The notes beneath the pieces are model-generated. The model saw only the letters and a program-made list of their open reading frames with translations, was not told the origin of the DNA and did no database searches. From Paenibacillus sp. FSL H8-0079 (GTDB lineage: Bacteria; Bacillota; Bacilli; Paenibacillales; Paenibacillaceae), in contig NZ_CP150300.1 of the NCBI RefSeq assembly GCF_037991315.1, positions 4,154,001-4,218,000 of the forward strand: a DNA stretch of 64,000 nucleotides. The letters are read 5' to 3'. The translations under genes were made by a program, and so were the position numbers. Positions 22,438 through 48,104 of this stretch are shown in pieces. The stretch's first letter is position 1, and each line of letters opens with the position of its first letter.

Positions 22438-22466
22438 TCTATACGTGTTATCCGATCGGCAGTTAA
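22438..22466 (-). promoter_or_regulatory. Locus-specific promoter A (TTAACT-17-CG-TATAGA family)
   Basis: Minus strand: TTAAAT-less exact box TTAACT at 22466-22461, 17 bases, TATAGA at 22443-22438 preceded by CG. The TAA of the -35 is the stop codon of the upstream gene (22465-22463). It drives the 124- and 71-residue genes. Confidence 0.7.
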
Positions 22467-22849
22467 ATTGGAGGTTCAGATGAAGTACTTGTTCCGCTGC
22501 TTAGGACCATATAGTTCGTACGCATATGGAGTACAGCCATGTCCAGATCAGCCACTCGTTTGGAAACAAATTCTTCAATCACAGGCTCCAACTGGGTGAA
22601 GCCTACGCCCAAGATCGGTTTCTTATGAATATAGGCACGATGCATGATCACAATATCAGTAGAAGTCAAATGATTCATATCCAGATTAACCAAGACTGCA
22701 TCGGCTTGTAGAACTACTTTCTCAATGATCAAGGTATACTCCCTGTTGCTTAAATCAGAAGCTGTCGAAGCATCATGACTAGCCCAAGCGATATCCGAAA
22801 ATCCCTCCAGACGTTCCATCGCAAATCCTAAAACCACCACACTAAGCAT
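22463..22849 (-). CDS. Possible nucleoside 2-deoxyribosyltransferase-like protein
   Basis: 128 residues. A Rossmann-like layout is suggested by a first hydrophobic strand (MLSVVVLGF), a central VLQADAVLVNLD and a following TSTDIVIMHRAY-x-HKKPILGVG. The D-A-V-L-V-N-L-D ... T-D-I ... A-x-x-x-x-K-P-I-L-G order recalls nucleoside 2-deoxyribosyltransferase-like (TIR-related) proteins. The similarity is by eye and short, so the function is tentative; the fold could instead serve nucleotide sensing or signalling. Preceded by promoter B and an AAAGGTGG box. Its stop codon is part of promoter A. Confidence 0.5.
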   Translation of the reverse strand: MLSVVVLGFAMERLEGFSDIAWASHDASTASDLSNREYTLIIEKVVLQADAVLVNLDMNHLTSTDIVIMHRAYIHKKPILGVGFTQLEPVIEEFVSKRVADLDMAVLHMRTNYMVLSSGTSTSSEPPI

Positions 22850-22880
22850 CTTGTTCCACCTTTCTTCCTGTACTAATCTC

Positions 22881-22910
22881 TCTATACGACATAAAAAAGC
22901 ACCCAGTTAA
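22881..22910 (-). promoter_or_regulatory. Locus-specific promoter B
   Basis: Minus strand: TTAACT (22910-22905), 18 bases ending GTCG, TATAGA (22886-22881). The -35 forms the loop of the terminator hairpin of the preceding sigma factor transcript. The 128-residue gene starts 32 bases downstream. Confidence 0.72.
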
Positions 22911-22919
22911 GGGTGCGCT
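22889..22919 (-). terminator. Terminator of the 188-residue sigma factor, with promoter B -35 in its loop
   Basis: Minus strand: GCGCACCC, loop TTAACT, GGGTGC, then a T-run. The loop sequence is the -35 of promoter B. Confidence 0.8.
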
Positions 22920-22984
22920 CTCTGTTCTATGTAGGTTACTGAATCTATCTTCATCAAACTTAGGCTATTAATTGCCATTTATGA

Positions 22985-23551
22985 CTACAATGCTTCGTAT
23001 TTCTCACGAATCGCTTTCCATAACTGGGATATACGTGCCTTGGATACACCTAACATTCCTGCAATCTCTACAAATTCATACCCCGAAGTTCGAAGTTTAA
23101 AGATTTGCTTCTCTCGTTCATTCAACTTCATATTCTCCATAATATCTGTTACAAACTCAAAATTCTCATACGCAAACCCAGCATGACCAAGCGCTAATGC
23201 GATATCTGAGCCTTCCGATTCATCGCCGCCTCCCTGATCCGTGCACATGATCTGTACAGCGTTAACCACACTGAGATTTTTCTCAGACATGCACTTGCGG
23301 TACATATCCTTGATTTTATTTTCGATAAGATGATCAACAAACGTCGACATTTTCGCTTTTTCTGCATCATACTTGTCCAGAGAGTTAACCAATTTGATCA
23401 TAATCTCCTGGGTCACATCTTCTTTTTCCATCCCGGCAAACGTTTTACCCCTAAGCTTGTAACGACACTTCTCCTGAGCTTTATTCAGGAACATGTCTAT
23501 ATCCCCAATCTCAAATAAATCATCAAAACCCATAGCAGTTGTAGCAGACAT
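22985..23551 (-). CDS. Small sigma-70 family factor
   Basis: 188 residues with region 2 (DVTQEIMIKLVNSLDKYDAEKAKMSTFV, ending in IKDMYRKC; 28 and 8 residues shown as two separate pieces of the domain) is seen near residues 45-90 and region 4 near 140-185 (LNEREKQIFKLRTSGYEFVE, then VSKARISQLWKAIRE). A region 3 is absent, so it resembles short phage or ECF-like factors. A LexA box lies about 240 bases upstream. Inference: it is the SOS-induced switch of the tail locus and may read the CG-TATAGA promoters. It starts behind GGGGG at good spacing and ends at a terminator fused to promoter B. Confidence 0.83.
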   Translation of the reverse strand: MSATTAMGFDDLFEIGDIDMFLNKAQEKCRYKLRGKTFAGMEKEDVTQEIMIKLVNSLDKYDAEKAKMSTFVDHLIENKIKDMYRKCMSEKNLSVVNAVQIMCTDQGGGDESEGSDIALALGHAGFAYENFEFVTDIMENMKLNEREKQIFKLRTSGYEFVEIAGMLGVSKARISQLWKAIREKYEAL

Positions 23552-23790
23552 TATACATTTCCCCCATTAACGATTTAATATCAGTAGTTCGTATACTTTC
23601 TTCACAATCTAGTAGCTATCCAGCATGATCTTACTCTACATTCTCGCTATTGCTCACAAATCTCATATTCCATATGTAGTCTTGTCACACAGAATTAAAG
23701 CTAAATAAGCCTTTTAGATACAACCGATCAGGAAACCTCGCCTTTGATCCGCCTCCTCATTCCCATCCTATTACATTCAGAATAACAAAT

Positions 23791-23806
23791 GCGAACTAAT
23801 GTTCGC
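23791..23806. promoter_or_regulatory. LexA (DinR) SOS box
   Basis: The palindrome GCGAACTAATGTTCGC contains CGAAC-N4-GTTCG, a full match to the Gram-positive LexA consensus. It lies in the 595-base gap (23552-24146) upstream of the 188-residue sigma gene. No gene is present on the plus strand nearby, so the minus-strand sigma gene is the likely target. Apart from this box, promoter-like site I and one hairpin, I see nothing else in the gap. Confidence 0.72.
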
Positions 23807-23847
23807 AACATTTATTTATTTTGTTCGCTTATATGCCTTTTACTGAC

Positions 23848-23876
23848 TATATACGAAGTATACGGTGAAAGGTAAA
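23848..23876 (-). promoter_or_regulatory. Weak member of the CG-TATA promoter family (site I)
   Basis: Minus strand: TTTACC (23876-23871), 17 bases ending in TTCG, TATATA (23853-23848). The -10 and its CG match the family, the -35 only partly. It is 45 bases upstream of the LexA box and could start the sigma transcript. Confidence 0.35.
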
Positions 23877-23895
23877 GAAGCATTTTTCACAAACA

Positions 23896-23962
23896 AAAAG
23901 ACCAACACAGAGCGCACCACTGGAAAATACCAAAATGGTGGAATGTGTCGGTCTTGGTCTGA
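23896..23962 (-). terminator. Large nested hairpin, probable terminator
   Basis: Outer 12-bp stem AAGACCGACACA/TGTGTTGGTCTT (one G-U pair) encloses an inner stem CCACCA/TGGTG; TTTTTGTTTG follows on the minus strand. It probably ends the transcript of the 138-residue gene, whose stop is 185 bases upstream. Confidence 0.55.
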
Positions 23963-24146
23963 CATCTATTTCGTCCCAATTACCGAAGATATGGCCTTCA
24001 AGTTCTTTAATAAGTTATAGGCTTCGTCAAGATTATTAATCTATTCAATCGCCATAAGGGTAGTATAAGGAAATATGTAGGATATTGTCAACAACAAAAT
24101 TAGTTCCCAAGAACCTGTCCAGTATTCAAACATTATTTAATAGGTC

Positions 24147-24563: not shown

Positions 24564-24679
24564 CCTGACCCTTTCTACTGCCCTTGAATATATGAATTCA
24601 ACCTAGTTTAATCAAAACTGCTTATACAAGACAAGTTTCAATGCATGCATTGAATCAAGTCACTATCATCTTTTCATGA

Positions 24680-24712
24680 AAAAGGAATAGACCCCAGAAC
24701 TAGGCTTGGGGT
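24680..24712 (-). terminator. Terminator after the 65-residue gene
   Basis: Minus strand: ACCCCAAGCC loop TGGGGT (24712-24691), followed by a T-rich but interrupted tract (CTATTCCTTTTTC). Moderate strength. Confidence 0.55.
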
Positions 24713-24802: not shown

Positions 24803-25000
24803 TTAATTTATCGTTTCATTGTTAAGTTCTATTTTGAGCAGGCTAAATGCAACCAGGTTCAATGCGACATTGGCACCGTAATCCCTTTCGATCAAATCGA
24901 ACGCTTCTTCCGTTGCTCCAACCAGGTCTCCCTTGTCCGAAGTCATCTCGGTAGTGACAATTTCCTCATTATTCAGTGCGAAGGTCAGCCTGTACAGCAT
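24803..25000 (-). CDS. Small protein of unknown function
   Basis: 65 residues, acidic, no membrane helix (YRLTFALNNEEIVTTEMTSD ... GATEEAFDLIERDYGANVAL). No family recognised. AAGGAGGGG precedes the ATG. The start overlaps the 3' end of the upstream 107-residue gene by 32 bases, so they are coupled. Confidence 0.55.
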   Translation of the reverse strand: MLYRLTFALNNEEIVTTEMTSDKGDLVGATEEAFDLIERDYGANVALNLVAFSLLKIELNNETIN

Positions 25001-25292
25001 CTGTGTTCCCCTCCTTAGAGGTCAATTCAATATTTCGCACATCGGTAAGATCAATGATATGAACCACATCATCTGTATCTTCCAGCGTAATCGATTTCCC
25101 TTCGTTCTTGTGTTTGGTGAAAAGTCGGCGATATTCTTGCTTAACCTCATCGGCAGTTAATGGGATTTCGCGTACGACCTTATCCGAATCTTTCTCTTTC
25201 TGTTGCAATCTAGGATTATCTTCCATCCAGTTTACCGTCTTCTTCTTCCCACTTCCCTTGAAATAGAAATGAGCAGTAAGTTCAATATTCAT
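24969..25292 (-). CDS. Small charged protein of unknown function
   Basis: 107 residues, rich in Lys, Glu and Asp. Begins with a beta strand (MNIELTAHFYFKG) and continues with a helical stretch (TADEVKQEYRRLFTKHKNEG) and ITLEDTDDVVHIIDLTDVRN. No family recognised. GGGAGGT precedes the ATG. First gene after promoter C. Confidence 0.58.
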   Translation of the reverse strand: MNIELTAHFYFKGSGKKKTVNWMEDNPRLQQKEKDSDKVVREIPLTADEVKQEYRRLFTKHKNEGKSITLEDTDDVVHIIDLTDVRNIELTSKEGNTDAVQADLRTE

Positions 25293-25335: not shown

Positions 25336-25364
25336 TCTATACGTTTTGATCATCAAATTGTTAA
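25336..25364 (-). promoter_or_regulatory. Locus-specific promoter C
   Basis: Minus strand: TTAACA (25364-25359), 17 bases ending AACG, TATAGA (25341-25336). The 107-residue gene starts about 44 bases downstream. Confidence 0.7.
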
Positions 25365-30573: not shown

Positions 30574-32340
30574 TCAAATCACGACCTTTCTAATTTTCAC
30601 TTGTTTGATGTTACCGCTAGCATCATATTCAAATCCCTTCTGAACTCCTTGGCCATCATAGATCAAGGTCTCAGTCTTAACGGTACCATCTGCATTGTAA
30701 GTAAACGATGTTTTCTTCAATAGCTGTGGAGTCAAATCTAATGAGAACACTTCTTCTGACTCAATGTCACCATTAGAGAAGTAGTTATATACGACATCCA
30801 GCTCAAGTGTACTTCCTTCAAGAAAGACAAGTCTCCTCCGGATGTCCGTGTCATCGAAGGTAGCACCTCCTTGAAGCACATAATACTCTGCACCATTGTT
30901 GATTTCGCGCAGTACTCTACCAGTAATGTCACGCTGATACTCAATGGACTTGATTTGTCCGTTACTCTCAGTAACCTCCTGTCGTTCCAGATTTCCATCC
31001 GGGCTATAGAAGTGCTCAATGGTGCGGTTGATCCCTCCATCAATCTTCTCCGTATGCACTTTTCCATCTGGATAATAGGTATATTCGGTTACCGAAGTGG
31101 TGTTAATAATTGACCCACGACCAATGACAGTTACTCGGGCTTCCTTGGGCACATCAAAAGTAAACCGTATAAGCGTATCATTATATTCAATGTAATCGTC
31201 TCCTGCATCCATGCGTATTCCATCCAGAAATACCTCTGCAGAATTTGAACCAATCACATATCTGGGCACTTGAAAATCTCTAGTCGTCGACAACCTGCTG
31301 TTAGGAGCAGAAGTGAAATGGAATACGGATTGATGCTCCATAGTGCCTGGACTCTCAGCGAGTTCAAGACGACTCTGCATGTTGTCGAGTCTGTCCTTGA
31401 GAGCATCATAGACGACTCCATTTTTATCTTCTTTTGAAGCCACAACTTCTTGAGCAGTTGCTTCTAAATGGGCCTCCATCGCTTTGATCGCCGTATGATG
31501 AGTAGCAATTGTTGTGGTTTGCTCACCAACGTTTTTTTCCAGATCATCTACACGAATTCCCAATGCTGACATGTCATTTTCAACAGAACCCTTTGTTAAG
31601 AAATACCTGAAATCTAAAGCCGTGAGTGAAGTTGTTGGAGAAACTCCAACATCGAGTCCACCTATGATCATGGCATCCTTGGGTTCTTCTTGATCTGAAC
31701 TGTACGAGTACTCCCCATTTTCATGAAGAAAAATATAATATGTTGTATTTGCCACAATGTCTGAAATGCTGAATGTCTGAGAAAACTGATCCACAATAAC
31801 TTTGTTAATACTGGCTCGTCCTGCATTAATCGTAACTTGAACACTGTTATTTGTATCTAGATACGTGGGGTTGGTAACGCTGAGATCCTGAATGGGTTGC
31901 TTCGATACAACTTCAATCGCTTTCTCCAACGTGCCAAATCGATTATCTATGGATGCCTCTGCTCCACGTGCTTCTTTAATTTCCGTCTCAGCCAGGCTCA
32001 ATCTCTTCTCATGGTCATCCTGACTCTTGAAAAGGGTATTAACATCTGCTCTTGCCGTCAGAATATCCTGCTGAACATCATCCAATCGTGAGCTGTTTGA
32101 AGTAACCTTAGTCTCGACATCGCCTAGTCTCTGCTCATGATCTTTTACTGCATCTCGGCTATAGTGTGCAGATTCTTCTACGAGTGTGATTCGGTCGCCT
32201 AGACTGAGTGCAGACCCTCTGGCTTCTTCCAACTCTGTAAGATAGGAATCAATCTCATCATGCGTACGGACCCCAATATCACTCAATTCCTTATGACTCT
32301 TGGCGGATGATCGATGAGACTGGTTAATTCTTACTGACAT
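30574..32340 (-). CDS. Tail fibre protein with coiled coil and YD-like repeats
   Basis: 588 residues. About 1-150 and 250-330 are heptad-rich coiled coil (EKRLSLAETEIKEARGAE and similar), typical of trimeric fibre shafts. A beta domain follows, and the C-terminal ~180 residues contain about six units of the form Y-x-Y-x-x-D/N-G-x-(V/L)-x-x-E, for example YYPDGKVHTE and FYSPDGNLER. The ATG at 32340 follows GGAGGT; the in-frame ATG at 32358 lies before that box. It is the first gene after promoter D. Confidence 0.72.
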   Translation of the reverse strand: MSVRINQSHRSSAKSHKELSDIGVRTHDEIDSYLTELEEARGSALSLGDRITLVEESAHYSRDAVKDHEQRLGDVETKVTSNSSRLDDVQQDILTARADVNTLFKSQDDHEKRLSLAETEIKEARGAEASIDNRFGTLEKAIEVVSKQPIQDLSVTNPTYLDTNNSVQVTINAGRASINKVIVDQFSQTFSISDIVANTTYYIFLHENGEYSYSSDQEEPKDAMIIGGLDVGVSPTTSLTALDFRYFLTKGSVENDMSALGIRVDDLEKNVGEQTTTIATHHTAIKAMEAHLEATAQEVVASKEDKNGVVYDALKDRLDNMQSRLELAESPGTMEHQSVFHFTSAPNSRLSTTRDFQVPRYVIGSNSAEVFLDGIRMDAGDDYIEYNDTLIRFTFDVPKEARVTVIGRGSIINTTSVTEYTYYPDGKVHTEKIDGGINRTIEHFYSPDGNLERQEVTESNGQIKSIEYQRDITGRVLREINNGAEYYVLQGGATFDDTDIRRRLVFLEGSTLELDVVYNYFSNGDIESEEVFSLDLTPQLLKKTSFTYNADGTVKTETLIYDGQGVQKGFEYDASGNIKQVKIRKVVI

Positions 32341-32369
32341 TTGACCACCTCCATTCATGCCTTACATGA

Positions 32370-32398
32370 TCTATACGTAATTACTCCAATACTATTAA
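32370..32398 (-). promoter_or_regulatory. Locus-specific promoter D
   Basis: Minus strand: TTAATA (32398-32393), 17 bases ending TACG, TATAGA (32375-32370). The -35 begins two bases after the TGA of the upstream gene. The predicted leader is about 23 bases. Confidence 0.68.
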
Positions 32399-36500: not shown

Positions 36501-38196
36501 CATTTACAGCGACCTCAAATGCTTCAGTAGGCCGTAACTGATGCTTATAGCTGAATATGAACCATCCCTCATCCGGCAAAGATACTATGGTTTGAGCAAT
36601 CATATCTCCCTGCTTCGGTTCATCCAGACGCAGCACATCCCCTTGATTCACCCAACTTGGATTTCCCAACATTAACCATTGATATTTTCCAATTCCTTGT
36701 CCATAGTGAAACGGTTCCCAATGATCAATCTCTCGCGGAGGACAAGTTACTTCGAGCGAACCTCTCAAGTCCACGGTCGTATCCGGCCCTGCAACAATTT
36801 CATATTCGATTTTAGCCTGGTTAGTCTCCGTTTCTGAATATTCCCCATTCAGTCTCCACTCCACACCATGCACTGATGTAGCATAACTGCCATGATCTCC
36901 ATCCCCGCGCTGAGTGCGTTCAAGCATTTTATCATCAAAAAATAACTGATAATCATGATCGGGATACGGCTCTTCATCCACCCCCATCTTGTAAGCAAAT
37001 GAAACCGTTCCATCACATTCGTTATCCAGATCCATCGTCATGGTTTTCTTACGTAAATCATCCGTAATGAACTGTCCTTTAAAATGGGCCTGTGCCACAC
37101 TTTGCGGTGATCTTACAACCCAGTTTCCATACTCATATACGTCCTCACCATCCAGATCGTAATCTTTCGGAGCAGGCGGCTTACGTGTATCCACAATTTC
37201 AACGACTTCTACATCCTTGATATAGATGCCATTGTTCTGCCATACTTCGGGTCTCATTTTGCGGATTAACCAGTCGAACTTGTACATCTGTCCTGGCTGC
37301 AACGTAAATGCAGCTTCCTGCCATCCGCTATTCTCGCTCCATTCGCCCCCAACTTGCTGCCCATTAATATAGAACAGCATGCCATTACCGCGCTTGGCAC
37401 TAGCCAGGTACTTGAACCTGATCTGTCCATAACGCTTCACACGCCAGTTAAATGTGATTTTGGATGAGTTGCCAATCTCCAGAAGCCCTAAATCCAGTTT
37501 TAAGATCATCTCTGATCCGGATTGTTCATTTCGGCCTACGGAGTGGACAGCTACCCATTCCTGATCCTCCGTCGATGATACATATCTGAAGAAATCAGGG
37601 AATTTATTCGAGAACGGGACGTCCTTTTTCATTGAAAAGAGCGGAATCTCATATACGGTTGCATCAAAATGATTAAAGTAATTCCCACTAAAATGATGGT
37701 AGTAGGGTGCCGGACAAACGGGCAATGATACACCATGATGACTACCGCCAGGCTTCTGAGCATTTTCAAGAATCTTGTGAATACAATCTTTAATCATCTG
37801 CAGTACTCGCTGATATTGTGTTTTATCTGGAGGCTGCTGTTGTTCTACCCACCATTCAATCCTGCGATACATATTCCACAGTGCTTCACGGCAGCGTACA
37901 CTCGCATACCACGACTTATCTTTCAGATATTGCTCAATGATTTGATCAATACTATTTTCCAGTGCATCCAATTGAACCGTCTGCCATCGTCCGATCTGAC
38001 CGTAACCTGGATCACCCAGAATAGGATTATTTTCTTCGCCATGCCGGTCCGTTTCACTCCTCGGTGCATTGGGACTCTGCGGTAAATACGCAGGGTTATT
38101 GGGGTTGCCGTAACTTTCGTCCGCAATCTTCGCTCTCATATTGGCGAACAATACACCTTTCTGTGATTTGGAGAACAAACCAAATGTATGACCCAT
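33550..38196 (-). CDS. Giant multi-domain tail protein with beta-sandwich modules
   Basis: 1548 residues, no signal peptide. It contains several repeated beta-sandwich units with the pattern strand-VNG/VDG-strand-G-x-F-x-W (for example FEVAVNGMSVYYTT, LELQVDGITVWTG, FRWIYRDGKAYVP, QLDFFIDNELIKTF), resembling carbohydrate-binding modules. A Gly/Ser/Asn/Pro linker lies near residues 810-850. The segment at nucleotides ~34,870-35,480 is clearly AT-richer and looks like an inserted domain. Start: ATG at 38196 behind GGGAGGTGAT. First gene after promoter E, with a leader of only about 15 bases. Probable long receptor-binding fibre. Confidence 0.68.
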   Translation of the reverse strand: MGHTFGLFSKSQKGVLFANMRAKIADESYGNPNNPAYLPQSPNAPRSETDRHGEENNPILGDPGYGQIGRWQTVQLDALENSIDQIIEQYLKDKSWYASVRCREALWNMYRRIEWWVEQQQPPDKTQYQRVLQMIKDCIHKILENAQKPGGSHHGVSLPVCPAPYYHHFSGNYFNHFDATVYEIPLFSMKKDVPFSNKFPDFFRYVSSTEDQEWVAVHSVGRNEQSGSEMILKLDLGLLEIGNSSKITFNWRVKRYGQIRFKYLASAKRGNGMLFYINGQQVGGEWSENSGWQEAAFTLQPGQMYKFDWLIRKMRPEVWQNNGIYIKDVEVVEIVDTRKPPAPKDYDLDGEDVYEYGNWVVRSPQSVAQAHFKGQFITDDLRKKTMTMDLDNECDGTVSFAYKMGVDEEPYPDHDYQLFFDDKMLERTQRGDGDHGSYATSVHGVEWRLNGEYSETETNQAKIEYEIVAGPDTTVDLRGSLEVTCPPREIDHWEPFHYGQGIGKYQWLMLGNPSWVNQGDVLRLDEPKQGDMIAQTIVSLPDEGWFIFSYKHQLRPTEAFEVAVNGMSVYYTTMHGNGEQVRIPLQAGNNIIQFRIRDSLTEEPFKYQSNKLFTYGNNTGNTYRTTSPLGSYVDVTRGWDVTDAGATTETNNDTIIYRSELNPGAKLTIKEHMRIYPAMDYNYDPKTGENRDEMVFYELFNEEDKISSRLRFTGSWQWKELIAGDGVMWAQGHNQEFICELEAHLNKPGYIFWQYGGDFDPGEKLELQVDGITVWTGNRSNGNDGTNCMYPVSSGSHRFRWIYRDGKAYVPSDGNPGGSGSGSANPGGNGTGNGPSNGSTTSPFGEVCFPGGIKDHEIQYGQSSYSGRSDQTSLWGWKNEGATYDGSHRLLDEGKYITRDFYAPHIGKIDYVETLKVYPIKKLNNTGLRPLRTSDMMRQYYAEPGTIYQNKENNYYGLNVKSLSPGDPKTEFDSPHTKMIYKRFYCEGEFSIDFRYICYLKDGNQQKARFRVYFYPESGTKRIILNEKNNRGKNNGKVNYTNISSTDWNTAATYSETVPNLKAGYYYICIGITDTFDDSDQDKEGFLYHASIKNLSIKTKDSAGLNGGNLVYPNRTDSETYVLVDLIDKTAGSTLYSYRYPASNGQIQTYNMDFTPYTIPGKAYTVQYSLHKASGAAEGSGLDAGGFTLSGGRFRESWNAYCTDSQGRLYLEGQSPHPGEDTWNPPGPGTTAPDGGSHAWLDVIRLYENRDRVCRGTKIVIETYEEGQLLIPPREVTNEDDQIISIEVENTSDQKKNYEVRVKFEQGCPGDGAMIWGGSMQLDDISKLDPSWAEVTHFEVWNNKPIWMGGCDNSNMRVKITREDGKVLWDEKYYGEGYRGFELNDLAPKPYSKYKVEITTDQKGQISDWTGKRYLTTFRLHDFKAYERWVWVPVPFDCQLDFFIDNELIKTFTQEGGYYTFSHPVPKGKHEFKWVFTSLQEVGTRSYEYANLDWMELTNWICDDVYVIPYCEGGGGDKCVEALIKCLLEVWKARPKMCVIGKRIWLFT

Positions 38197-38216
38197 ACCA
38201 ATCACCTCCCAATCTC

Positions 38217-38245
38217 TCTATACGACAAAAAGAGCACCGAGTTAA
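38217..38245 (-). promoter_or_regulatory. Locus-specific promoter E
   Basis: Minus strand: TTAACT (38245-38240), 17 bases ending GTCG, TATAGA (38222-38217). The TAA inside the -35 is the stop codon of the 1932-residue gene, and the same bases form the terminator loop. Confidence 0.78.
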
Positions 38246-38252
38246 TCGGTGC
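38227..38252 (-). terminator. Terminator whose loop is both stop codon and promoter E -35
   Basis: Minus strand: GCACCGA, loop TTAAC, TCGGTGC, then TCTTTTT. The stem encodes the last residues (Gly-Thr-Asp) of the upstream protein. Confidence 0.82.
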
Positions 38253-41200
38253 CCGTCAGATCATATTGCAATTTCGAATCTGTGTAGATCTGGAGTTTAT
38301 TTTTCATGACCGACACGGACAATGTATACCATTTTTCCTTCTCCCACTTAAAGGGTTGCATCGGAGAGCCCACTGCAGTTGGATTACCAGCAACGATTTT
38401 ATATAGCTGCATCGGCGTTCTCATATCCAGACTGTTATCGCTGTCTCCTCCGTGAACCATAAACATCCAATAATTATGTTCATCGAAGTATTTGAAAATA
38501 ATTCCTGCGCCATCCCCATCCGTACTTGTATCTACCTTGAAATCAATGGAGAATTTATACGTCTCAGCCAGGAAATTATTACGGTACCATCCACTGATGT
38601 CCTTCGTATCTTCCTTGGAATAAAACTTTCCAAGCAATGGATCCCGATCCCAATCACCTTGACCGAATTTAGTCCAATCGTCTGATTGGGATAATTCCAG
38701 CGCATCCATATCCTTGGAATACGGATAGTACACATTAAATGGATCATTCGGATCATAGTCCTCTGGAACACCCAAGCCACCTTCCCAATCTTCAGGATCC
38801 ATCCCTCGATCGAGCAGATCTTCCGAGTAATCGAATATGAGACCCTGTGCCATGGTATCCATCATCGGAATATAAGCATCAGCGGATTCACGTTCAGCCA
38901 CCGGATGATCATTCAGTGTGAAGCTCTCACGCGGTTCCATCTTGGCTTCGTGATACATTTCCATAAGATGAGCTGTTCTCTCGGGAAGGAACGCGTGCAA
39001 CTGTTCCAGATACTCTGCTCTTTTCTCAGGTCTTTCAGCGAAAATAAAACCTGTGATGACTTGAGAACAGCGTTCTTCAAATGAAGCCATGAGAGAATCA
39101 GGATCTTCGATTTCAGACAATCTGGCGTTCGCTATACCAGTTGGCAACTCTCTTTCTATACTGGATTCACGTTCCTCAATTATCCCTTTAAAATCATCTT
39201 CAATAAGATAACCCGGGTCTATTAACTTACTGCCAAAGCTCTCGCGGTCATTAACAATGTAACTTGTGTATGGAAGACTATTTCCGTAACTTAACTCCTC
39301 ACTGGAGAAAGCAAACCTCTGGAGTGTGGTACCATATATCCCATCAAAATGCTCACCGGCTCGCTCACCCCCAACGCCACTTTCCATTTCATGTGAATGA
39401 CCATATTGATCCATTTTCCCCGCTGCGAATTGCTCCCAATCCAGAGTCGTACTTCTTAACAAGTTCATTCCAGAATCCAATTGATGGTTATACGCGTCAT
39501 AAGAACTTCTGGAGCTCATGAACGAGTTATCTTCAATATGAACGTCTCTCGTTTTAAGGTAAGCATATTCGCTTTGGATCAGGTCTATCTGTTTATATTG
39601 GAAGCCAACCAGTTCCATGTCCATAATGGATTCTTTAAATTCCTTGTTTCCGTAGAACATGTCCTGATCCAACGATCCATTTCGCAGTTTCACTACATCA
39701 TTGATCGTCTCATGGGTATGCGCCCATCTTTCAGCTTTTACCCCAAAAAGGTTGTCATGCAGGAATGCTGACCTATCCTCTTTATTTAACTCAAGCGTTT
39801 GGATCAAATCAGCTTCATTACCGTTTTTAAACGCATGAATTTGCTCATCAATAGTGGAATCTTTGGCATTTTTCAGACCATACATGTTCTCTTCCAAATA
39901 TCCATATTGCGGTTTGTCGGCGAGCAGATTCTCTTCCATATTGCCGTACTGGGGTTTGTCCGCTGAGAGTACAATCTCTGTTGTTCCATACTTCAAGTTT
40001 GTTCCACCAACAATCTCAACTGGAACATCACCGTACTTCAGATTCGTTCCGCCAACAATCTCTACAGGTATGTCTCCATAACTGAGCCCCGTCCCACCCA
40101 CGGATTCCACTGGAACATCTGCATATTTCAAATTTGTACCGCCTAGTGGTAGCGTGAGGTCAAGGTAACCATATTGCGGTTTATCCGCTATAAGTTGTTC
40201 TTCAAGATTAGCAATCTTTTCAATCGTGCTATTAGTTGTCTCATGAAGGTAAGCGTCATGAGTAAGCTTGTAGGCAAGGAACACATCATGACCCAGTGCC
40301 GAATCCTTTCTACTCTTTATCGAATCATAGATCAGTTCGACCAAGTCAGTATCTCTGATACCTTTACCACCGTACCAACCCTCACCATGCAATTCACTCA
40401 AGCGTAACTTGACAACTTCACTCTCAATCTCATGGACTGATGCCTCTTTCACGATTCTTGTAGAATGGTTATCTTCAAGCATAAGAGATAATCTATTCAT
40501 GTTATCCGAAATGATTTCAACGTTCAATTGTCCTTTGCGCATGATTGAATGAGCCGTCAGCATATCGTCAAGATTCGCAGATTTCATTACAGTAGTGGCT
40601 AGAGATATCTCATCTTGCACCGATCCATATCGATCTACCCTAATCGCTTCAGAAGTAATATTTACCAACGTGGATTCCCATGCTTGCCGCGTACCTGCAT
40701 TAAACTCAATATCCATTGCACTATCTCTTGCCCACGATGAACCAAGCGTATATCCAATCTCAGCTACTCCATCTCGATATTTCGAGCTGCTTATGGAATA
40801 ATCCTCGCTGAACAGCGCAGATCTCCATTCCAAAGTCGCCAGTGAGTAATCGATATCAATAGCTGCGTGACGTGGTTCAATCATGCCAATAGAATAACTC
40901 TCATTCAAATACAACTGTCTGATCTTGGCTGTGCCTATGGAGTACTCACCACTGATTATACCTTCTCTTATTGGATTAGTAGCCATAAGTTGTTGATCAT
41001 ACAAGTATCCCTCACGAGTCTTTGACGTTCCAATAGCATATTCGCTGTTCAAAAGCATCTGGCGCAAGTTCGTGCCACCCATGGTGTATTCATCATCAAT
41101 TATTCCATGTCGATACCGGGAAACCCCGCCCATATTAAATTCGGTATGAATCACACTCTCACGGTTCATGTTGGAACTCACGATATGATGGTCGAGAGCC

Positions 41201-44040
41201 ATTCCGTCCCGTTTGTATTTTGCGCCTATCCCGTACTCATCAAAGGTTTGTCCTCTGCGTTCAACTTGACTTCCTTCATACGCTGGGTCATCCGGGAATA
41301 ATCCCCCTCCAGGATTCAGGTAACCGAATGAATCTTCAAACTCAATAATAGCCGGTCTTGCATTAAAATCTGCGCCGTAAATGACTTCCGTAATTTCGCC
41401 ATGCTGATCTTCCTTTACTTTCACTCCCTCGAAAACGTCTGTCTCTAGAGTAGAATTACGTCTGTTCAGTTCAGCCGATCGAGATTCATCCTCAAGTACT
41501 GTCATGCTCAGCTCTTTGGATGCTTCTGCGAGTTCCGTCCCTATATCACCAAGCTGAGGTTCCTTCGCACCTTCGAAATTAAATGAAATGATGCCTGATC
41601 TGCTTCCTTCTTTGTCAGCTGTTAAGATCCCGCAATCGACTAACGCATCTACCCGCTCTCTAACTCCCACCAAAAACGGTTCATCAAAATAAACCGAAGC
41701 GTCTGCATTATTTACAGCTTCCATCATCATTTCCAGAATGACTGCCGGGCTGTTCTCCAAGATCTCCCCTACGATAAATTCCTCGTCCAGATACCCAGGG
41801 TAGGCTTTATTCCCTAACCATCCTCCACCAACCAATTTGTCCAGAAGCTCGTCTCGAATCATGGTGGGTCGACTAAGATCTCGGATAGATTGCAGGATCC
41901 TTTCCAGATTTAGCTTTTTACGCTCTCTATGTAACATAAGTGGTTTCTCTGTCAGATGTACATGCTTCTGTTCGTCGTTCTTTCCAAACGAATTTAGCTT
42001 TTCGAGCATGGTAGAACGTAATAATTCTTTGTCAGCCAAATGGTCCTCAGACTCAGGTAACCACAAATCATGAGCAAACGCTCTTTCTGCCGTTGTTGAA
42101 CCATCCGTATAGCTTTCAAAGGATGCTTTTCTTTCTGCACCTTCTTCGCTGTTCGGGATGTACAAATTCTTTTTCTCTGTTTTTGCAGTATGGAAGTTAT
42201 CCTCAATATAGCTGTCTAATTTGTTTTCCCTTCCACCAAGTGATTGCTTGTTAAGTACTTCAAGAGCCTCTACAGTCACTCGTTTGCCTAGCCTACTTTC
42301 CCTCTCCACATACCCAGGGACCTTACTGATCCTTCTGCTCTCCTGCAAATCTCTGAAAACAAAACCGTGCTCCGTACTTTCACGATAAGCCTGTTCTGCA
42401 TGACGGTCTAACTCACTATGAACCACATAAATCCGTTGTGCCTTAGGACGCTCGTGCTCAATATACATTTTCTCCAAATAAACTCTTTGCCCCGTAGTCA
42501 GATCACCCATGACGTTCATATCTTCCGCTTGATCTCGAACAGCCCAAGGAAACTGTCGTTCCACATCCGTAATAGTCCCTATATCTCTGGATGCCAAAAT
42601 GATACCGGATGCTGTAGATGCCGGATGTTTGTCTATAATTCTGTGAGCTTGGAGCGGATGCCACAGGGTATCACTAGGACGAAAGACTAGCGCATTTCGA
42701 TATTGGTCACGGCTGCTTTGGCTGAGATCATCATGAAAGTAAAGTTGCTTGTCGACTTCTCGCGTACTTCTCATTTCGGTATGTAGAACAGTCGGGTACT
42801 GACGATCCTTCAGTTTGGCAAGTACATTCTCGTGAGTTGTCATTTCATTCTTAATAACCCTCGTAGCCTGATTCAGTTGTGAAAGAAACATATTCTCTTC
42901 GATGTCTCTGATTGCTTGAACAATTTTGCCTGTAGTCGTTCCACCAAACGTTGTTGCTCGCACAGCTGTTCCCAGTGTATGCATGAGTGTCAATTGTGAA
43001 ATGTTATCCACTCTTTGGGCTAACAGCAACGTCCGATCAAGGTGCATATACTTTATTTCCTGAAATCTACGAATATAAGCAGTCGACATATCAGAGAGAA
43101 CGGACAATTGCTGATGATCATCTACCCTTTTCCCAATCATGGCAGCTTGTTCAGCAAATGTTTCTTTATGAACATCACGTAAACCTAGCAGATCCTGATA
43201 TAGAATTTCCACGTCTTGTTTGCTTACCTTCCGAGATTGAAGGCTTCTCTCCAGTTCTGTACTTCTGAAGTGGTCTTGAATGGCTTCTAACAAAAAGTCA
43301 TTTTGTGCCCGGCGTCCAATGATCTTCTCCACTTTCTCGAAAACCTCTGCCACATCCATATCCGGTTTATCGTTTCGAACAGAGTGTATCAATTGTTTAA
43401 TCACCAGTTCAGAGCTGTTATCTTGCTCTGCACTATCTGCATAGTCCGCAATCATCCCAAATTCACTAACCCTGAAACTGATTCTTCCATGCTCCAGCTT
43501 ATCCAGATTCTTCACAAAGTTACGAGTTAAACCCAAATTACGGACAATCTTTAGCTCTTTATCGTTATCTACGCGCCAGCCCTCTGACATATCTTCAGGA
43601 ATGAATGAGTCCTTTAAACCTCCGGGTCTATGGCCCTCATCTTGATGATCCATCTCCAAAGCTTCAATTAAAGCAGACCGCTCCATTTCGAACGAAAATT
43701 CCATGACATCGCCTTGCTTGGTAGCTGAGCTCGATCCTTCCATGGAACTGTGTAAAAGTCCTTCTTTATCCTGTTCAGCATCACTTAGAACAATAAATCG
43801 TTCTTCTCCTTCTAGATCCTTGCGAATCGCTTCCACAAGTTGATGATTAAATCCATGTGAGATCGATCTTGCCATGTAAAAATCAAGCATTAGAACACTT
43901 GGATACCGGCTGTAAGGCATGTATATAAATCGATAATCCTCAGGCCTGCTTCCTGTAGTTCCGACTGTAAACAGGTAACCGTACTGAGTTGTCGTGTAAT
44001 CTATAACGGTGAAATCAAACTTATTGACTACTTGACTCAC
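38242..44040 (-). CDS. Giant repetitive tail fibre-like protein with C-terminal lectin-like domain
   Basis: 1932 residues, no signal. An N-terminal domain (~1-110; TGSRPEDYRFIYMPYSRYPS) is followed by charged helical sequence to ~900. Then come at least eleven 16-residue repeats (nucleotides ~41,212-40,672) of the form R-x-G-(I/L)-(I/L)-x-x-E-Y-x-(I/M)-G-x4, and further on 14- to 15-residue repeats with GGTNLKYG and ADKPQYG (about 40,200-39,880). The last ~150 residues are a concanavalin-like domain (KFSIDFKVDTST ... GAGIIFKYFDEHNYWMFM). GTG at 44040 is chosen because AAGGGGG lies upstream; the alternative TTG is at 44058. I do not recognise the full-length family. Probable long fibre with a glycan-binding tip. 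Confidence 0.7.
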   Translation of the reverse strand: MSQVVNKFDFTVIDYTTTQYGYLFTVGTTGSRPEDYRFIYMPYSRYPSVLMLDFYMARSISHGFNHQLVEAIRKDLEGEERFIVLSDAEQDKEGLLHSSMEGSSSATKQGDVMEFSFEMERSALIEALEMDHQDEGHRPGGLKDSFIPEDMSEGWRVDNDKELKIVRNLGLTRNFVKNLDKLEHGRISFRVSEFGMIADYADSAEQDNSSELVIKQLIHSVRNDKPDMDVAEVFEKVEKIIGRRAQNDFLLEAIQDHFRSTELERSLQSRKVSKQDVEILYQDLLGLRDVHKETFAEQAAMIGKRVDDHQQLSVLSDMSTAYIRRFQEIKYMHLDRTLLLAQRVDNISQLTLMHTLGTAVRATTFGGTTTGKIVQAIRDIEENMFLSQLNQATRVIKNEMTTHENVLAKLKDRQYPTVLHTEMRSTREVDKQLYFHDDLSQSSRDQYRNALVFRPSDTLWHPLQAHRIIDKHPASTASGIILASRDIGTITDVERQFPWAVRDQAEDMNVMGDLTTGQRVYLEKMYIEHERPKAQRIYVVHSELDRHAEQAYRESTEHGFVFRDLQESRRISKVPGYVERESRLGKRVTVEALEVLNKQSLGGRENKLDSYIEDNFHTAKTEKKNLYIPNSEEGAERKASFESYTDGSTTAERAFAHDLWLPESEDHLADKELLRSTMLEKLNSFGKNDEQKHVHLTEKPLMLHRERKKLNLERILQSIRDLSRPTMIRDELLDKLVGGGWLGNKAYPGYLDEEFIVGEILENSPAVILEMMMEAVNNADASVYFDEPFLVGVRERVDALVDCGILTADKEGSRSGIISFNFEGAKEPQLGDIGTELAEASKELSMTVLEDESRSAELNRRNSTLETDVFEGVKVKEDQHGEITEVIYGADFNARPAIIEFEDSFGYLNPGGGLFPDDPAYEGSQVERRGQTFDEYGIGAKYKRDGMALDHHIVSSNMNRESVIHTEFNMGGVSRYRHGIIDDEYTMGGTNLRQMLLNSEYAIGTSKTREGYLYDQQLMATNPIREGIISGEYSIGTAKIRQLYLNESYSIGMIEPRHAAIDIDYSLATLEWRSALFSEDYSISSSKYRDGVAEIGYTLGSSWARDSAMDIEFNAGTRQAWESTLVNITSEAIRVDRYGSVQDEISLATTVMKSANLDDMLTAHSIMRKGQLNVEIISDNMNRLSLMLEDNHSTRIVKEASVHEIESEVVKLRLSELHGEGWYGGKGIRDTDLVELIYDSIKSRKDSALGHDVFLAYKLTHDAYLHETTNSTIEKIANLEEQLIADKPQYGYLDLTLPLGGTNLKYADVPVESVGGTGLSYGDIPVEIVGGTNLKYGDVPVEIVGGTNLKYGTTEIVLSADKPQYGNMEENLLADKPQYGYLEENMYGLKNAKDSTIDEQIHAFKNGNEADLIQTLELNKEDRSAFLHDNLFGVKAERWAHTHETINDVVKLRNGSLDQDMFYGNKEFKESIMDMELVGFQYKQIDLIQSEYAYLKTRDVHIEDNSFMSSRSSYDAYNHQLDSGMNLLRSTTLDWEQFAAGKMDQYGHSHEMESGVGGERAGEHFDGIYGTTLQRFAFSSEELSYGNSLPYTSYIVNDRESFGSKLIDPGYLIEDDFKGIIEERESSIERELPTGIANARLSEIEDPDSLMASFEERCSQVITGFIFAERPEKRAEYLEQLHAFLPERTAHLMEMYHEAKMEPRESFTLNDHPVAERESADAYIPMMDTMAQGLIFDYSEDLLDRGMDPEDWEGGLGVPEDYDPNDPFNVYYPYSKDMDALELSQSDDWTKFGQGDWDRDPLLGKFYSKEDTKDISGWYRNNFLAETYKFSIDFKVDTSTDGDGAGIIFKYFDEHNYWMFMVHGGDSDNSLDMRTPMQLYKIVAGNPTAVGSPMQPFKWEKEKWYTLSVSVMKNKLQIYTDSKLQYDLTGTD
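39880..40200 (-). repeat. 14- to 15-residue coding repeats (GGTNLKYG / ADKPQYG)
   Basis: Consecutive units DIPVEIVGGTNLKYG, DVPVEIVGGTNLKYG and then shorter NMEENLLADKPQYG-type units. The nucleotide sequence is also close to repeated, suggesting recent tandem duplication. Confidence 0.82.
40672..41212 (-). repeat. Eleven 16-residue coding repeats (REGIISGEYSIGTAKI type)
   Basis: Units such as RHGIIDDEYTMGGTNL, RQMLLNSEYAIGTSKT, REGIISGEYSIGTAKI, RQLYLNESYSIGMIEP and RSALFSEDYSISSSKY follow one another with a strict 16-residue period (one 17-residue unit). Conserved Arg at position 1, acidic-aromatic pair at 8-9 and small residue at 12. Confidence 0.87.
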
Positions 44041-44060
44041 GTCACTGCCCCCTTCCAACT

Positions 44061-44100
44061 AAAAAAAGGGAACCCCTGAGTGGAGTCTCAGAAAGTTCCC
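44061..44100 (-). terminator. Hairpin terminator lying downstream of promoter F
   Basis: Minus strand: GGGAAC ... CTGAG loop CTCAG ... GTTCCC followed by seven T residues. It lies between promoter F and the start of the 1932-residue gene, so a transcript from F would meet it at once. Confidence 0.82.
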
Positions 44101-44110
44101 TCTCACTGAA

Positions 44111-44139
44111 TCTATACGACTCAGCTTTGATTCAGTTTA
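44111..44139 (-). promoter_or_regulatory. Locus-specific promoter F
   Basis: Minus strand: TAAACT (44139-44134), 17 bases ending GTCG, TATAGA (44116-44111). It begins three bases after the TAA stop of the 378-residue gene. Confidence 0.65.
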
Positions 44140-44141
44140 AC

Positions 44142-45278: not shown

Positions 45279-45291
45279 TATGTAATCCTCC

Positions 45292-47247
45292 TTATTTTAT
45301 CTCTTTCAAAAATGCAATCGTAATTACATCTGGTGATGGGGAATGCTTGAATAGATTCAACGGACTCTTGATACTGAAAAACTTGTAAACCTCTGTCCAT
45401 GTACCCAATGCAGGTTTGGAAGGATCTTTCAGAATTTCTGTGTCTACGATCAATTCATCGCGATTGACCAAATTATGGTCGTATATCGCAACTACACCGT
45501 CCATATAACCTCGGTATCCTTCTGCCTGATGCACAAGGTAGATTGGACTCGCGTGATACTTTCCTGTCCAGAGGGATTTCTGGAACCCATTCGTATCTAC
45601 AATCAATTTCGAAAGGCCTGGGGGAAGTTTACCCACAGAAGGATAGTTCGGAAGATGCGAAATAAATGCCGGGTAATACCGCTGGAACAAGACATTACTG
45701 CGTGTCTTCAACATGGACATGGAGTCCATGCCATTTGAAGTGTACTCACCGTATTTGGCATAGATATCTGGATTAAGATCCGTGAGAATATCATTTTTCG
45801 TATAACCTGTCATATCTGTTCGCAGATCACCCATACCTACAGTGACACCAAAGTTTCCTCCATGGTCGTAATCATTGAACGGAACGATCTTGCCTATGTA
45901 TCCAAAACTGCGGTAATAGCTGTGAATATTCGGTGAAGGATCACCTTCCAGAACAAGAACTACTCGATCATTGTTTACCGATAAAGTGTAAGCTACCAGG
46001 TAATCCGGTCTGCGTTTTTTGTTAGGCAACCATGACGTGGTAGAATGTCGTCCGTGGAAAAAGCGAGCTGCCGGACTTACGATCTCTGTCTTGCCGTCAT
46101 AATCCAGCTTCCACTTCGTGGACGGAGGGATGAAAGGTTTAATGGCTGATGAATCATTCCATGTTAAATACATATAATGAGCCTTTAATTGGTCGATGAC
46201 TGTAGGTGCCTTACCAATCGCAATAGTTGTAGGATCGCAGATCGCATCATACGTTTCGCTCTGGCTCCCTTGAGCAACTTTCCCCTCAAAACCTTCTCCA
46301 TAGTAGATGTTAATGTAATTCCAGTCATGGGCTGGCTGCTCAAACATGACATAATAATCTCGAACCTGAATCCCTGTGGGAACTGTAGGAGTTGATTTCA
46401 CTACTGTCTGAGCAGTTACATTGTTCAGTACATCAGCTGTATAGAATAGTTCATCAAACTTGTAAAGTTGCTTTACAGGTTCATAGTAATAATCCACAAT
46501 ATTACCCCAAGCCCAGTAAGGATGATATTGATAGTCGTTAACTCTTCTGGTTAAGTTGTATTGATACTTGCCTTTAGACACTAGCTTGATTGCATATGCC
46601 CAATCGGTAGGCATCTCTGTGACAATCTCAAACTGATTCCATTCATTCGATGGTTTTGTTGTGCCATCCAGGTTTCCAATCACCTGTCGTACCAGGTATG
46701 CTCTGTACCCATCCGGAACTGAATCATCTACAACAACGGTTACCAAACAACCAGGAACATCAACATATTTTGTTTCATTTGTCTGAGCATCTTTGTAATC
46801 GAATTGTACAACCTGGATTTTACGTCCTGTCTTATAATTGCCGTAAGTTTTTCCGATGTTTGCTGTGCCAGGTTGAGTCATACCTTCAGCTGATTCGTCA
46901 AAATAGGTTTGTCTTACTTCCCATAAACACCCATCCGCATCTAAGGCAGATTCTCCTGTGTAACTTTTGGCTTCGGTCCAATCCGGAATTTTGTATACTT
47001 CATATTGATTTCCATCCGAATGCGCATACATGCCAACAATGCCTTTGTGATAACTTTTACTGTAAGTCACCCACTCAGCTCCGCTAGATTCATATACCTT
47101 CTCCCAGCGATTGGCATCAATTCCGCCCTCTACTTTGGGAATATCAGCACCTACGATTTCATCGGCCAGCGTGTTAATCAATTTTTGTGCTTCCGACTCT
47201 CCGTCAATATAAGCAGCAAAGTTCGTCTGCGGTTTTTGCAGTGCCAT
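45292..47247 (-). CDS. Paralogue 1 of the EG-x-RG virion-type protein family, long form
   Basis: 651 residues, the longest member: it has an additional ~250-residue N-terminal beta-rich part (VTYSKSYHKGIVGMYAHSDG ... LVTVVVDDSVPDGYRAYLVR) before the shared C-terminal region (TGKYHASPIYLVHQAEGYRG, then DELIVDTE). Start ATG at 47247 follows GGAGGGTGACG; the frame could be extended to a GTG six bases earlier. The extra part may attach the family to the baseplate; this is inference. Confidence 0.67.
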   Translation of the reverse strand: MALQKPQTNFAAYIDGESEAQKLINTLADEIVGADIPKVEGGIDANRWEKVYESSGAEWVTYSKSYHKGIVGMYAHSDGNQYEVYKIPDWTEAKSYTGESALDADGCLWEVRQTYFDESAEGMTQPGTANIGKTYGNYKTGRKIQVVQFDYKDAQTNETKYVDVPGCLVTVVVDDSVPDGYRAYLVRQVIGNLDGTTKPSNEWNQFEIVTEMPTDWAYAIKLVSKGKYQYNLTRRVNDYQYHPYWAWGNIVDYYYEPVKQLYKFDELFYTADVLNNVTAQTVVKSTPTVPTGIQVRDYYVMFEQPAHDWNYINIYYGEGFEGKVAQGSQSETYDAICDPTTIAIGKAPTVIDQLKAHYMYLTWNDSSAIKPFIPPSTKWKLDYDGKTEIVSPAARFFHGRHSTTSWLPNKKRRPDYLVAYTLSVNNDRVVLVLEGDPSPNIHSYYRSFGYIGKIVPFNDYDHGGNFGVTVGMGDLRTDMTGYTKNDILTDLNPDIYAKYGEYTSNGMDSMSMLKTRSNVLFQRYYPAFISHLPNYPSVGKLPPGLSKLIVDTNGFQKSLWTGKYHASPIYLVHQAEGYRGYMDGVVAIYDHNLVNRDELIVDTEILKDPSKPALGTWTEVYKFFSIKSPLNLFKHSPSPDVITIAFLKEIK

Positions 47248-47258
47248 CGTCACCCTCC

Positions 47259-47669
47259 TTATCTCAAAAATTTGATGTTGTACCAGACCGACTTGGCTTC
47301 AGCCACCGCGTTGAAGAAGTCAAACTTGATGGTCGTTCCCGCCGGAATCGGGTAGACAATTCCGAAACTGTTACCCATGGAAACCGACTCGGGAAGTTCC
47401 TTCGTATAGATGGTATGACATACCTTCTCCGTCCCGATCATCAGCTCCCAGTAATCGCCGACACAATAGTGGCTCGCAGCAAACGCAATGCTCAGAAACT
47501 CTGTGTCATACGCCAAGGTGAACGTATCAGACTTGGTGGTCTTCGCCGCCGGAATGTCCAACATCTGTCCCCGAATGAACGGGATCGTCTTTTTACTGAA
47601 GTGTGGGTACGGCAGCTCGCGCACTTTGTCGATGACGCCACCCGCGATGTAAGATACATTAAATGCCAT
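47259..47669 (-). CDS. Small beta-rich tail protein
   Basis: 136 residues, no recognised family. Mostly beta: SDTFTLAYDTEFLSIAFAAS ... YPIPAGTTIKFDFFNA. Excellent GGAGGTGG box. It is the first gene of the promoter G transcript, with a leader of about 13 bases, and is followed by the long paralogue 1. Possibly a connector between hub and fibre proteins. Confidence 0.58.
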   Translation of the reverse strand: MAFNVSYIAGGVIDKVRELPYPHFSKKTIPFIRGQMLDIPAAKTTKSDTFTLAYDTEFLSIAFAASHYCVGDYWELMIGTEKVCHTIYTKELPESVSMGNSFGIVYPIPAGTTIKFDFFNAVAEAKSVWYNIKFLR

Positions 47670-47687
47670 GGAACCACCTCCTACATG

Positions 47688-48104
47688 TTATATACGACTT
47701 ACGCTCGTTCCAGTTAAGCGTCCTTCGTCATCATAATTTAGACCAATATTGTAAGTGAACATCGACTCTCCACTCGGATCATATGTACGGGCCGTCACCT
47801 GCGTTAGCCTGAAATACTTGTAATACTCATAATCCGGGTGGGAATAGCCCACTCCGGAAGGAAAGTCTTCCTCATCCTCTGAGCCGAACTTCATCCAGAT
47901 CGAAACCTTCCATGCCGATTCATACAAGAGGTCTGCTCCAGTCACCCTGTCCGGGTCCTGCATGTGCTCCCGATATAATGTAACAGAAGGCTCACCTTCA
48001 AGAGGAGAAACATTCGAATTGGAGATACTGCTATATTTGCGAAGCTCCCGGTGGATTAGATCCAGCACGGGAAATACAATATTTTCATTCACAATGCCGG
48101 CCAT
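47688..48104 (-). CDS. Baseplate-region protein, function unknown
   Basis: 138 residues. N-terminal helix (NENIVFPVLDLIHRELRKYS), a beta middle, and a C-terminal NYDDEGRLTGTSVSRI that resembles the YD-like units of the fibre proteins. The ATG at 48104 overlaps the hub stop codon (TAATG). The last nine codons contain the whole of promoter G, so the coding sequence is also a promoter. Confidence 0.62.
   Translation of the reverse strand: MAGIVNENIVFPVLDLIHRELRKYSSISNSNVSPLEGEPSVTLYREHMQDPDRVTGADLLYESAWKVSIWMKFGSEDEEDFPSGVGYSHPDYEYYKYFRLTQVTARTYDPSGESMFTYNIGLNYDDEGRLTGTSVSRI
47689..47717 (-). promoter_or_regulatory. Locus-specific promoter G, inside coding sequence
   Basis: Minus strand: TTAACT (47717-47712) encodes Leu-Thr, 17 bases ending GTCG, TATATA (47694-47689) overlaps the Ile and stop codons of the 138-residue gene. 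Confidence 0.7.

Follow-up and report, generated by a model that had tools for sequence, protein, structure and literature searches.

The recurrence of one promoter-like motif across a phage tail locus of Paenibacillus sp. FSL H8-0079 raises the question of which factor reads it and how that factor is itself controlled. We addressed this question in a 64,000-nucleotide stretch of the genome (contig NZ_CP150300.1, positions 4,154,001 to 4,218,000; hereafter, the window), for which an initial annotation had proposed a promoter family used only in the tail locus and served by a dedicated sigma factor or activator. Judged from the DNA, the locus appears to hold a private set of about nine promoters that are turned on by a phage sigma factor and that serve the tail cluster and hardly any other gene of the host. 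We consider it likely that these sites are the promoters of a small extracytoplasmic function (ECF)-like sigma factor encoded at 22985..23551 on the minus strand, whose gene would be repressed by LexA, triggered by DNA damage and self-activating.

The seven minus-strand sites of the initial annotation all lie at the coordinates that it gave. The form TTAAC-N16-CGTATAGA is found at 22438..22466, preceding 22009-22425 and the genes at 21797, 21029 (a lytic transglycosylase) and 20183 (a second sigma factor); at 25336..25364, preceding 24969-25292; and at 38217..38245, preceding 33550-38205. Variants of it are TTAAC-N17-CGTATAGA at 22881..22910, preceding 22463-22849; TTAAT-N16-CGTATAGA at 32370..32398, preceding 30574-32358; T-TAAAC-N16-CGTATAGA at 44111..44140, preceding 38242-44058; and TTAAC-N16-CGTATATA at 47689..47717, which lies within the 3' end of 47688-48131 and precedes 47259-47669. 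The spacer had been given as 17 bases with one exception of 18; counted from TTAA to CGTATA, the distance is 17 at five of these sites and 18 at two (22881 and 44111), the second of which recovers the usual N16 when TAAAC is taken as the −35 box and fits only in that way. A site that had been classed as weaker, TTTAC-N16-CGTATATA at 23848..23876 on the minus strand, proved to be a real ECF-type site upstream of the small sigma gene and probably reflects autoregulation of that gene. We also found a site absent from the initial annotation, TTAAC-N16-CGTATAGG at 63561..63587 on the plus strand, which points away from the tail genes; downstream of it lie an open reading frame of 62 amino acids (63659-63847) and then convergent endolysin and holin genes past the window edge. 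The other putative weaker site, at 59314, was rejected, as its −10 columns are 58% conserved (56/96) compared with 94 to 100% at the other nine sites.

The window contains seven copies of the core CGTATAGA; shuffled sequence has 1.13 on average, and none of 100 shuffles reached seven. Six of the seven copies belong to the sites initially annotated; the seventh, at 47403 on the plus strand, lies opposite a coding region and lacks a suitably spaced TTAA. The −35 boxes of 22881 and 38217 each form the loop of an intrinsic-terminator-like hairpin (predicted folds of −14.7 and −15.4 kcal/mol, respectively), so that the end of one unit would be the beginning of the next. A terminator-like hairpin follows the 44111 site, the −10 box of which sits inside a palindrome, CTGAATC-GTATA-GATTCAG (region 44093-44140), that is perfect in 8 of 18 loci compared and imperfect in the window; palindrome and hairpin together are a possible operator or leader attenuator.

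The strict form of the motif, TTAACN16-17CGTATAGAG, occurs four times in the whole genome (G000), and all four copies lie within the locus, as the initial annotation had anticipated. The relaxed form, TTAAN17-18CGTATA, has 32 matches in 6.71 Mb against 47 for a reversed control and is therefore not enriched over the genome as a whole. Eight of these matches, the plus-strand site at 63561 among them, fall within the 41 kb from 22440 to 63587 of the window and 24 within the other 6.67 Mb. The density elsewhere predicts 0.15 matches in that interval (Poisson P for at least eight, ~5e-12, the pattern and the region both having been picked after the sites were known).

Among 75 genomes of the genus, 21 carry strict sites and 20 carry the small sigma gene (E <= 1e-20). 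The gene is present in 20 of the 21 genomes with a strict site, and each of these 20 has 2 to 16 strict sites, all at the same locus; a strict site was found in 1 of the 55 genomes that lack the gene (G023, one site). Because the pattern was drawn from the G000 sites and because locus and gene are inherited jointly, this co-occurrence speaks for confinement and linkage, not for recognition. At E <= 1e-12, the small sigma gene is present in 23 of 394 genomes of the family. The 17 sigma loci in genome contigs comprise 15 from Paenibacillus (30 to 100% identity) and two remote ones (26 to 28%), and a protein search added the sigma factor in Brevibacillus laterosporus (76%) and Peribacillus frigoritolerans (52%).

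For each of the nine sites, we then aligned the homologous stretches of other loci (12 to 20 per site) without requiring the motif. Letters identical to those of the window made up 750/765 of the −35 box and 905/918 of the −10 box (98 to 99%), compared with 1794/2314 (78%) of the spacer, 2305/3060 (75%) of the 20 bases upstream and 1794/2142 (84%) of the 14 bases downstream. Three sites are under extra constraint: 47689 is part of a coding sequence, and the spacers of 22881 and 38217 contribute to the terminator-like hairpins. The equivalent of the 23848 self-site has the form TT(T/A)AC-N16-CGTATA in all 19 other loci of the genus, and that of G009 reads TTAAC. The plus-strand site at 63561 was recovered in all 12 other loci with a homologous stretch; eight loci have no such stretch there, and a comparable plus-strand site is present elsewhere in the same interval in at least G026, G010, G029, G067 and G097. 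A fixed-distance script missed the 25336 site in 5 of 18 stretches; of these loci, G026, G070, G078 and G097 nevertheless have one, and no site of this type was found in the fifth, G067.

A logo was made from 21 G009 sites and 24 sites of G000, G165 and the viral record L173, collected with TTAAN17-18CGTATA in a 27-base layout, those letters being fixed by the selection. It reads cTTAACT-N14-TCGTATAGAG with an A..GTR.G element near the expected start, and a downstream element, GAG..A.GTR.G, is also common to the sites. The C of TTAAC, which the search did not impose, is present in 40 of the 45 logo sites; one G009 site (24101) seems spurious. The hallmarks of ECF sigma factors are AAC at −35, CGT at −10, domains sigma2 and sigma4 only, a linker under 50 residues and autoregulation (PMC8103513, in excerpt). 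The motif has this form when read as AAC-N16-CGTATA, with deviations at 32370 (AAT), 22881 (N17) and 44111 (TAAAC); it fits the grammar of ECF sigma factors and would, we infer, be read by the small sigma factor.

The same letters could be parsed as TTAACT-N17-TATAGA, that is, as sigma-A promoters working with a shared activator that would contact the CG and the downstream GT element. The sigma-A consensus is TTGACA and TATAAT; each box matches it at 4/6, and a spacing of 17 is ideal. We regard this explanation as quite unlikely, since the conservation of the two boxes extends to letters that are not those of sigma-A, the unselected C of TTAAC is largely kept and the rest of the genome shows no enrichment of the motif. 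Furthermore, the 20 bases upstream are no better conserved than the spacer. With nothing upstream of the −35 box conserved beyond background, an activator acting with sigma-A becomes less likely, and of the two options that the initial annotation had left standing, a dedicated sigma factor is favored.

The locus has two sigma-family genes. The proposed reader of the motif, the product of the small gene at 22985..23551, has 188 amino acids arranged as sigma2, linker and sigma4; Pfam Sigma70_r2 (residues 39-86) and Sigma70_r4 (142-180) scored above cutoff, and region 3 was not found. An AlphaFold model (mean predicted local distance difference test score [pLDDT], 69.9; predicted template modeling score [pTM], 0.41) has helices at 9-87 and 137-187 in two domains. 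The linker, 92-134, is loose and of low confidence in the model, and its 43 residues are under the ECF limit of 50 (PMC8103513, in excerpt). We call the protein ECF-like mainly because only regions 2 and 4 are present. Foldseek gave nine matches at E <= 1e-3, of which six bear titles of ECF sigma-H complexes and two, including the top one, are integrative models otherwise named; with template modeling scores of ~0.3, this support is weak.

The second sigma gene, at 20183..20986 on the minus strand, encodes a SigF/SigB/SigG-like protein of 267 amino acids with regions 2, 3 and 4, which is found in 21 of the 75 genus genomes at 79% identity or more. It probably belongs to the unit starting at 22438, the gaps in which (between 22009, 21797, 21029 and 20183) are at most 63 bases; this arrangement would place the second sigma factor under the control of the ECF-like one. 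It is conceivable that the second sigma factor is what reads TTAAC-CGTATA and that the ECF-like gene has another role, for it shows the same linkage to the locus and is likewise conserved in these phages. Relatives with deletions bear on this point. Seven tail proteins (27364 to 53387) had no counterpart in the stretches examined of G090 (50 kb), G067 (20 kb) and G093 (12 kb), and all three have the ECF-like gene at 90 to 91% and four sites each, namely, the self-site, 22881, 22438 and either the plus-strand site (G090 and G067) or a 25336-type site (G093). In G095 (C30, L110:11754-13359), the tail cluster has been lost naturally, the second sigma gene is intact (~82 to 83% identical) and the LexA-type box described below is kept, but the ECF-like gene is a remnant, and 60 kb contained no TT(A/T)AN17-18CGTATA, the self-site beside the box included. 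These cases support the view that the motif tracks the ECF-like gene and neither the second sigma gene nor the tail. SigF and SigG boxes are unlike TTAAC-N16-CGTATA, and the second sigma gene lies downstream of a site and not behind a self-site. We therefore consider recognition by the second sigma factor unlikely, and the small ECF-like factor appears to be the better candidate on the grounds of motif grammar, self-site and deletions.

Between the self-site at 23848 and the small sigma gene lies a LexA/SOS-type box, CGAACATTAGTTCG (23792..23805, no strand assigned), which matches exactly the Bacillus subtilis form CGAAC(n)4GTTCG (PMC4551915, in excerpt). It is the sole match with at most one mismatch in the 64 kb; shuffled sequence, with the same tolerance, averaged 1.41 matches, and what carries weight is therefore the exactness and position of the box, not the count. 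Within 700 nucleotides upstream of the sigma gene, 19 of 23 loci have an exact box, one has a box with one mismatch and three (G009, G165 and G293) have none; the self-site is present within the same distance in 19 of the 23. In G009 and G165, a box lies ~1.2 kb upstream of the sigma gene, ahead of a primase-sigma operon. An ECF-type site stands directly before the box in G009, G165 and L173 as well and precedes the primase-sigma operon in the first two.

G009 (Paenibacillus sp. FSL H7-0326) carries, at the same chromosomal place, an apparent full-length prophage of ~115 kb (C18, about 340-457 kb) with genes for a serine integrase, ribonucleotide reductase, a UvsX-like recombinase, DNA polymerase, primase, helicase, portal and terminase. 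This element has 22 TTAAN17-18CGTATA places, among them places before the DNA polymerase, ribonucleotide reductase, primase-sigma and helicase genes. The description of the motif as used only in the tail locus therefore needs qualifying: the strict form is confined to the locus, but full-length relatives have the motif before replication genes too. The tape-measure-like protein of the G009 element has 3,050 amino acids, compared with 1,297 in the window. Neither the portal nor the terminase of G009 was matched (E <= 1e-5) by anything in the 100 kb surrounding the window or in 19 other loci, G205, G293 and G095 (stretches of 12 to 100 kb, not whole genomes), which suggests that the locus is tail-only and tailocin-like. 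G165 has kept polymerase and primase and not portal and terminase. Judged by its genes, the window is a headless remnant of a large phage, and any particle that it makes is presumably a tail.

We scanned eight viral records with the relaxed motif and its reversed control, and in records of ~112 to 125 kb the motif recurs as the sigma factor diverges. Matches and control matches numbered 22 and 0 in G417 (the G009 prophage), 19 and 0 in G418 (ECF-like protein, 76% identical), 5 and 2 in G419 (49%) and 11 and 0 in G420 (45%). The G420 count bears on the idea that the sites are related by chance or plain inheritance and have no function: flanks are indeed also common to close genomes, but spacers and flanks have drifted and the boxes have not, and at 45% sigma identity the motif is still there without control matches. 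We consider this idea very improbable.

Taken together, these observations suggest the following scheme. In the resting cell, LexA would sit on the box at 23792-23805 and keep the sigma gene off. DNA damage, which is probably what switches the sigma factor on, would remove LexA and allow the factor to be made from a putative sigma-A promoter. The factor would then activate its own upstream site at 23848 in a positive loop, and its holoenzyme would bind the other eight promoters of the locus, of the TTAAC-N16-CGTATAGAG type, and fire them at the predicted starts. In the fuller ancestral phages, it may have been the lytic master switch for replication and structural genes; here, where head and replication genes have been lost, it would serve a tailocin-like tail particle.

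Several observations weigh against this scheme. The ECF assignment of the small sigma factor is loose: it passed TIGR02937 sigma70-ECF (61.8 against a cutoff of 42.9 bits), yet the SigF-like sigma factor passes too (57.4); PF08281 Sigma70_r4_2 (19.5/25.7) and PF07638 Sigma70_ECF (16.3/21.1) stayed under cutoff; and the top PDB sequence match is sigma-H (4.9e-12), with SigW far weaker (0.0017). Anti-sigma families were not found among the scanned neighbors at 22463 (PHROGs only), 22009, 24147 (MpsC) and 24969; a cotranscribed anti-sigma factor is no longer counted as defining ECF sigma factors (PMC8103513, in excerpt). As for LexA, exact CGAACN4GTTCG occurs at three places in the genome, more rarely than its reversed control (26 matches); of the other two, one falls within a gene judged by eye to be enolase-like and one is intergenic. 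CGAACN4GTTYG occurs at 14 places against 48 control matches. Neither form matched upstream of a recognizable lexA or recA gene in a genome scan with neighbors judged by eye, which leaves use of the exact box form by the host unproven. Both sigma factors are inherited together, so that co-occurrence alone cannot tell them apart: the second is present at E <= 1e-50 in six of the seven viral records besides that of G009 and weakly (7e-5) in the seventh. The broken ECF-like gene of G095 is a single strain's case, support and not proof.

The more distant relatives also count against the scheme. The relaxed motif is not clearly enriched in G421 (ECF-like protein, 40% identical; 2 matches and 0 control matches) or G422 (43%; 1 and 0), and the corresponding numbers are 0 and 0 in G423 (33%) and 1 and 0 in G424 (27%). 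The shorter CGTATAG, for which G417 to G424 gave, in order, 28/8, 27/10, 25/16, 5/18, 2/5, 12/21, 2/2 and 2/4 (matches/control), is enriched in G417 and G418 and slightly in G419 but not in G420, G421, G422, G423 or G424. It fails in G420 because the core stays while the following bases change: all 11 long matches there start TTAACT, and the 5 within the 20 kb examined continue CGTATAAGT. Dyad and 8-mer counts did not recover TTAAC-CGTATA in G205 (40%) or G293 (~30%), whose tail loci, when scanned directly, had two and zero TTAAN17-18CGTATA places, respectively; a CTAYNCTA box was seen there instead, for which a consistent −35 partner was not found. Finally, the longest and first tail operon of the window (59100 to 47688) has no TTAAC-CGTATA site.

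That operon is preceded by a different element, GTTAGGG-N15-CTACACTA at 59223..59252 on the minus strand, which is not of the ECF type. Among 18 loci that include the region, 15 have an exact G(T/C)TAGGG-N13-17-CTANNCTA upstream of the first tail gene, and G010, G009 and G165 have copies with one mismatch; G205 has GTTAGGG-N15-CTACTCTA. Six more matches with one mismatch lie elsewhere in the scanned loci. The element at 59223-59252 represents a second conserved, promoter-like class. Several relatives have related CTAT(T/C)CTA boxes ahead of 61870-62619. One tentative extension of the scheme, which we think more doubtful than probable, is a two-tier cascade triggered by damage, in which LexA would repress the ECF-like factor, the ECF-like factor would drive the SigF-like second sigma factor, and the latter, through GTTAGGG-N15-CTACACTA, would drive the major tail operon. 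On the first tier, the ECF-like factor would act on its own gene, on the operon ending with the second sigma gene and on the private CGTATA promoters, and the CTAYNCTA boxes of the diverged clade would count as related to the second promoter class. If this is true, a sporulation-like sigma relay was captured by a large temperate phage lineage and retained on its decay into a tail weapon.

Two further features of the window may be recorded here. The gene at 22009-22425 has been retained next to the two sigma genes, in G205 and G293 as well, and encodes a 138-amino-acid protein of unknown family that is a candidate regulator. CGTATA also occurs 10 times on the minus strand at 6621-8772, inside the gene for a 1,659-amino-acid protein (4712-9691), where the copies are probably coding repeats and not promoters.

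Among known phages, the nearest named ones by two tail proteins are Brevibacillus phages Jenst and SecTim467 and Bacillus phage EZ-2018a, at 30 to 37% identity; among 50,697 phage records, these three included, none matched the ECF-like sigma factor at E <= 1e-5. The second sigma factor resembles Eldridge g169, a phage-encoded forespore-type SigF/SigG-like sigma factor from a phage of a spore-forming host; that work concerns host sporulation, and a private phage promoter set is not described in the excerpted text (PMC9429907). Among the large temperate phages of Bacilli, SP-beta has LexA boxes, the serine integrase SprA and a ribonucleotide reductase (PMC8270828, in excerpt), and G009 likewise has an integrase and a ribonucleotide reductase. 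SP-beta differs in that it relies on YonO, a single-subunit RNA polymerase that it encodes, and not on a sigma factor to transcribe its structural cluster (PMC8270828, in excerpt). The system described here suggests how a large temperate phage, needing no polymerase of its own, could tie lysis to DNA damage and how such a circuit could outlast domestication into a tail particle. It would also offer a clean sigma-promoter pair, in which promoter changes can be traced from 100% to ~45% sigma identity and which could be an orthogonal expression tool in Bacilli.

The closest regulatory precedents are UviA and Xpf. UviA of Clostridium perfringens is inducible by UV and the SOS response, and its promoters differ from TTAAC-CGTATA. 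It is a TcdR-type (group V) factor from a plasmid-borne bacteriocin locus, an ECF-like sigma factor of a mobile element that drives adjacent bacteriocin promoters, and its relative TcdR activates its own gene (PMC4885068, in excerpt), as the self-site would allow in the window. The differences lie in the group V family of UviA and in the ~nine dispersed promoters that here serve a tail cluster and, in the fuller phages, replication genes. Xpf of the B. subtilis element PBSX is not known to have a multipromoter ECF-type motif. By its description, Xpf is comparable as a protein with sigma2 and sigma4 and as a positive control factor tied to the PBSX prophage and DNA damage (PMC10141391, in excerpt). 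With UviA and Xpf as precedents, the kind of system is not new. Judged by titles and the openings of abstracts, we found no published description of this combination, and what is new, as far as the literature was searched, is the ECF-type grammar with a confined multipromoter set, the LexA-plus-self layout and the spread of both over large phages.

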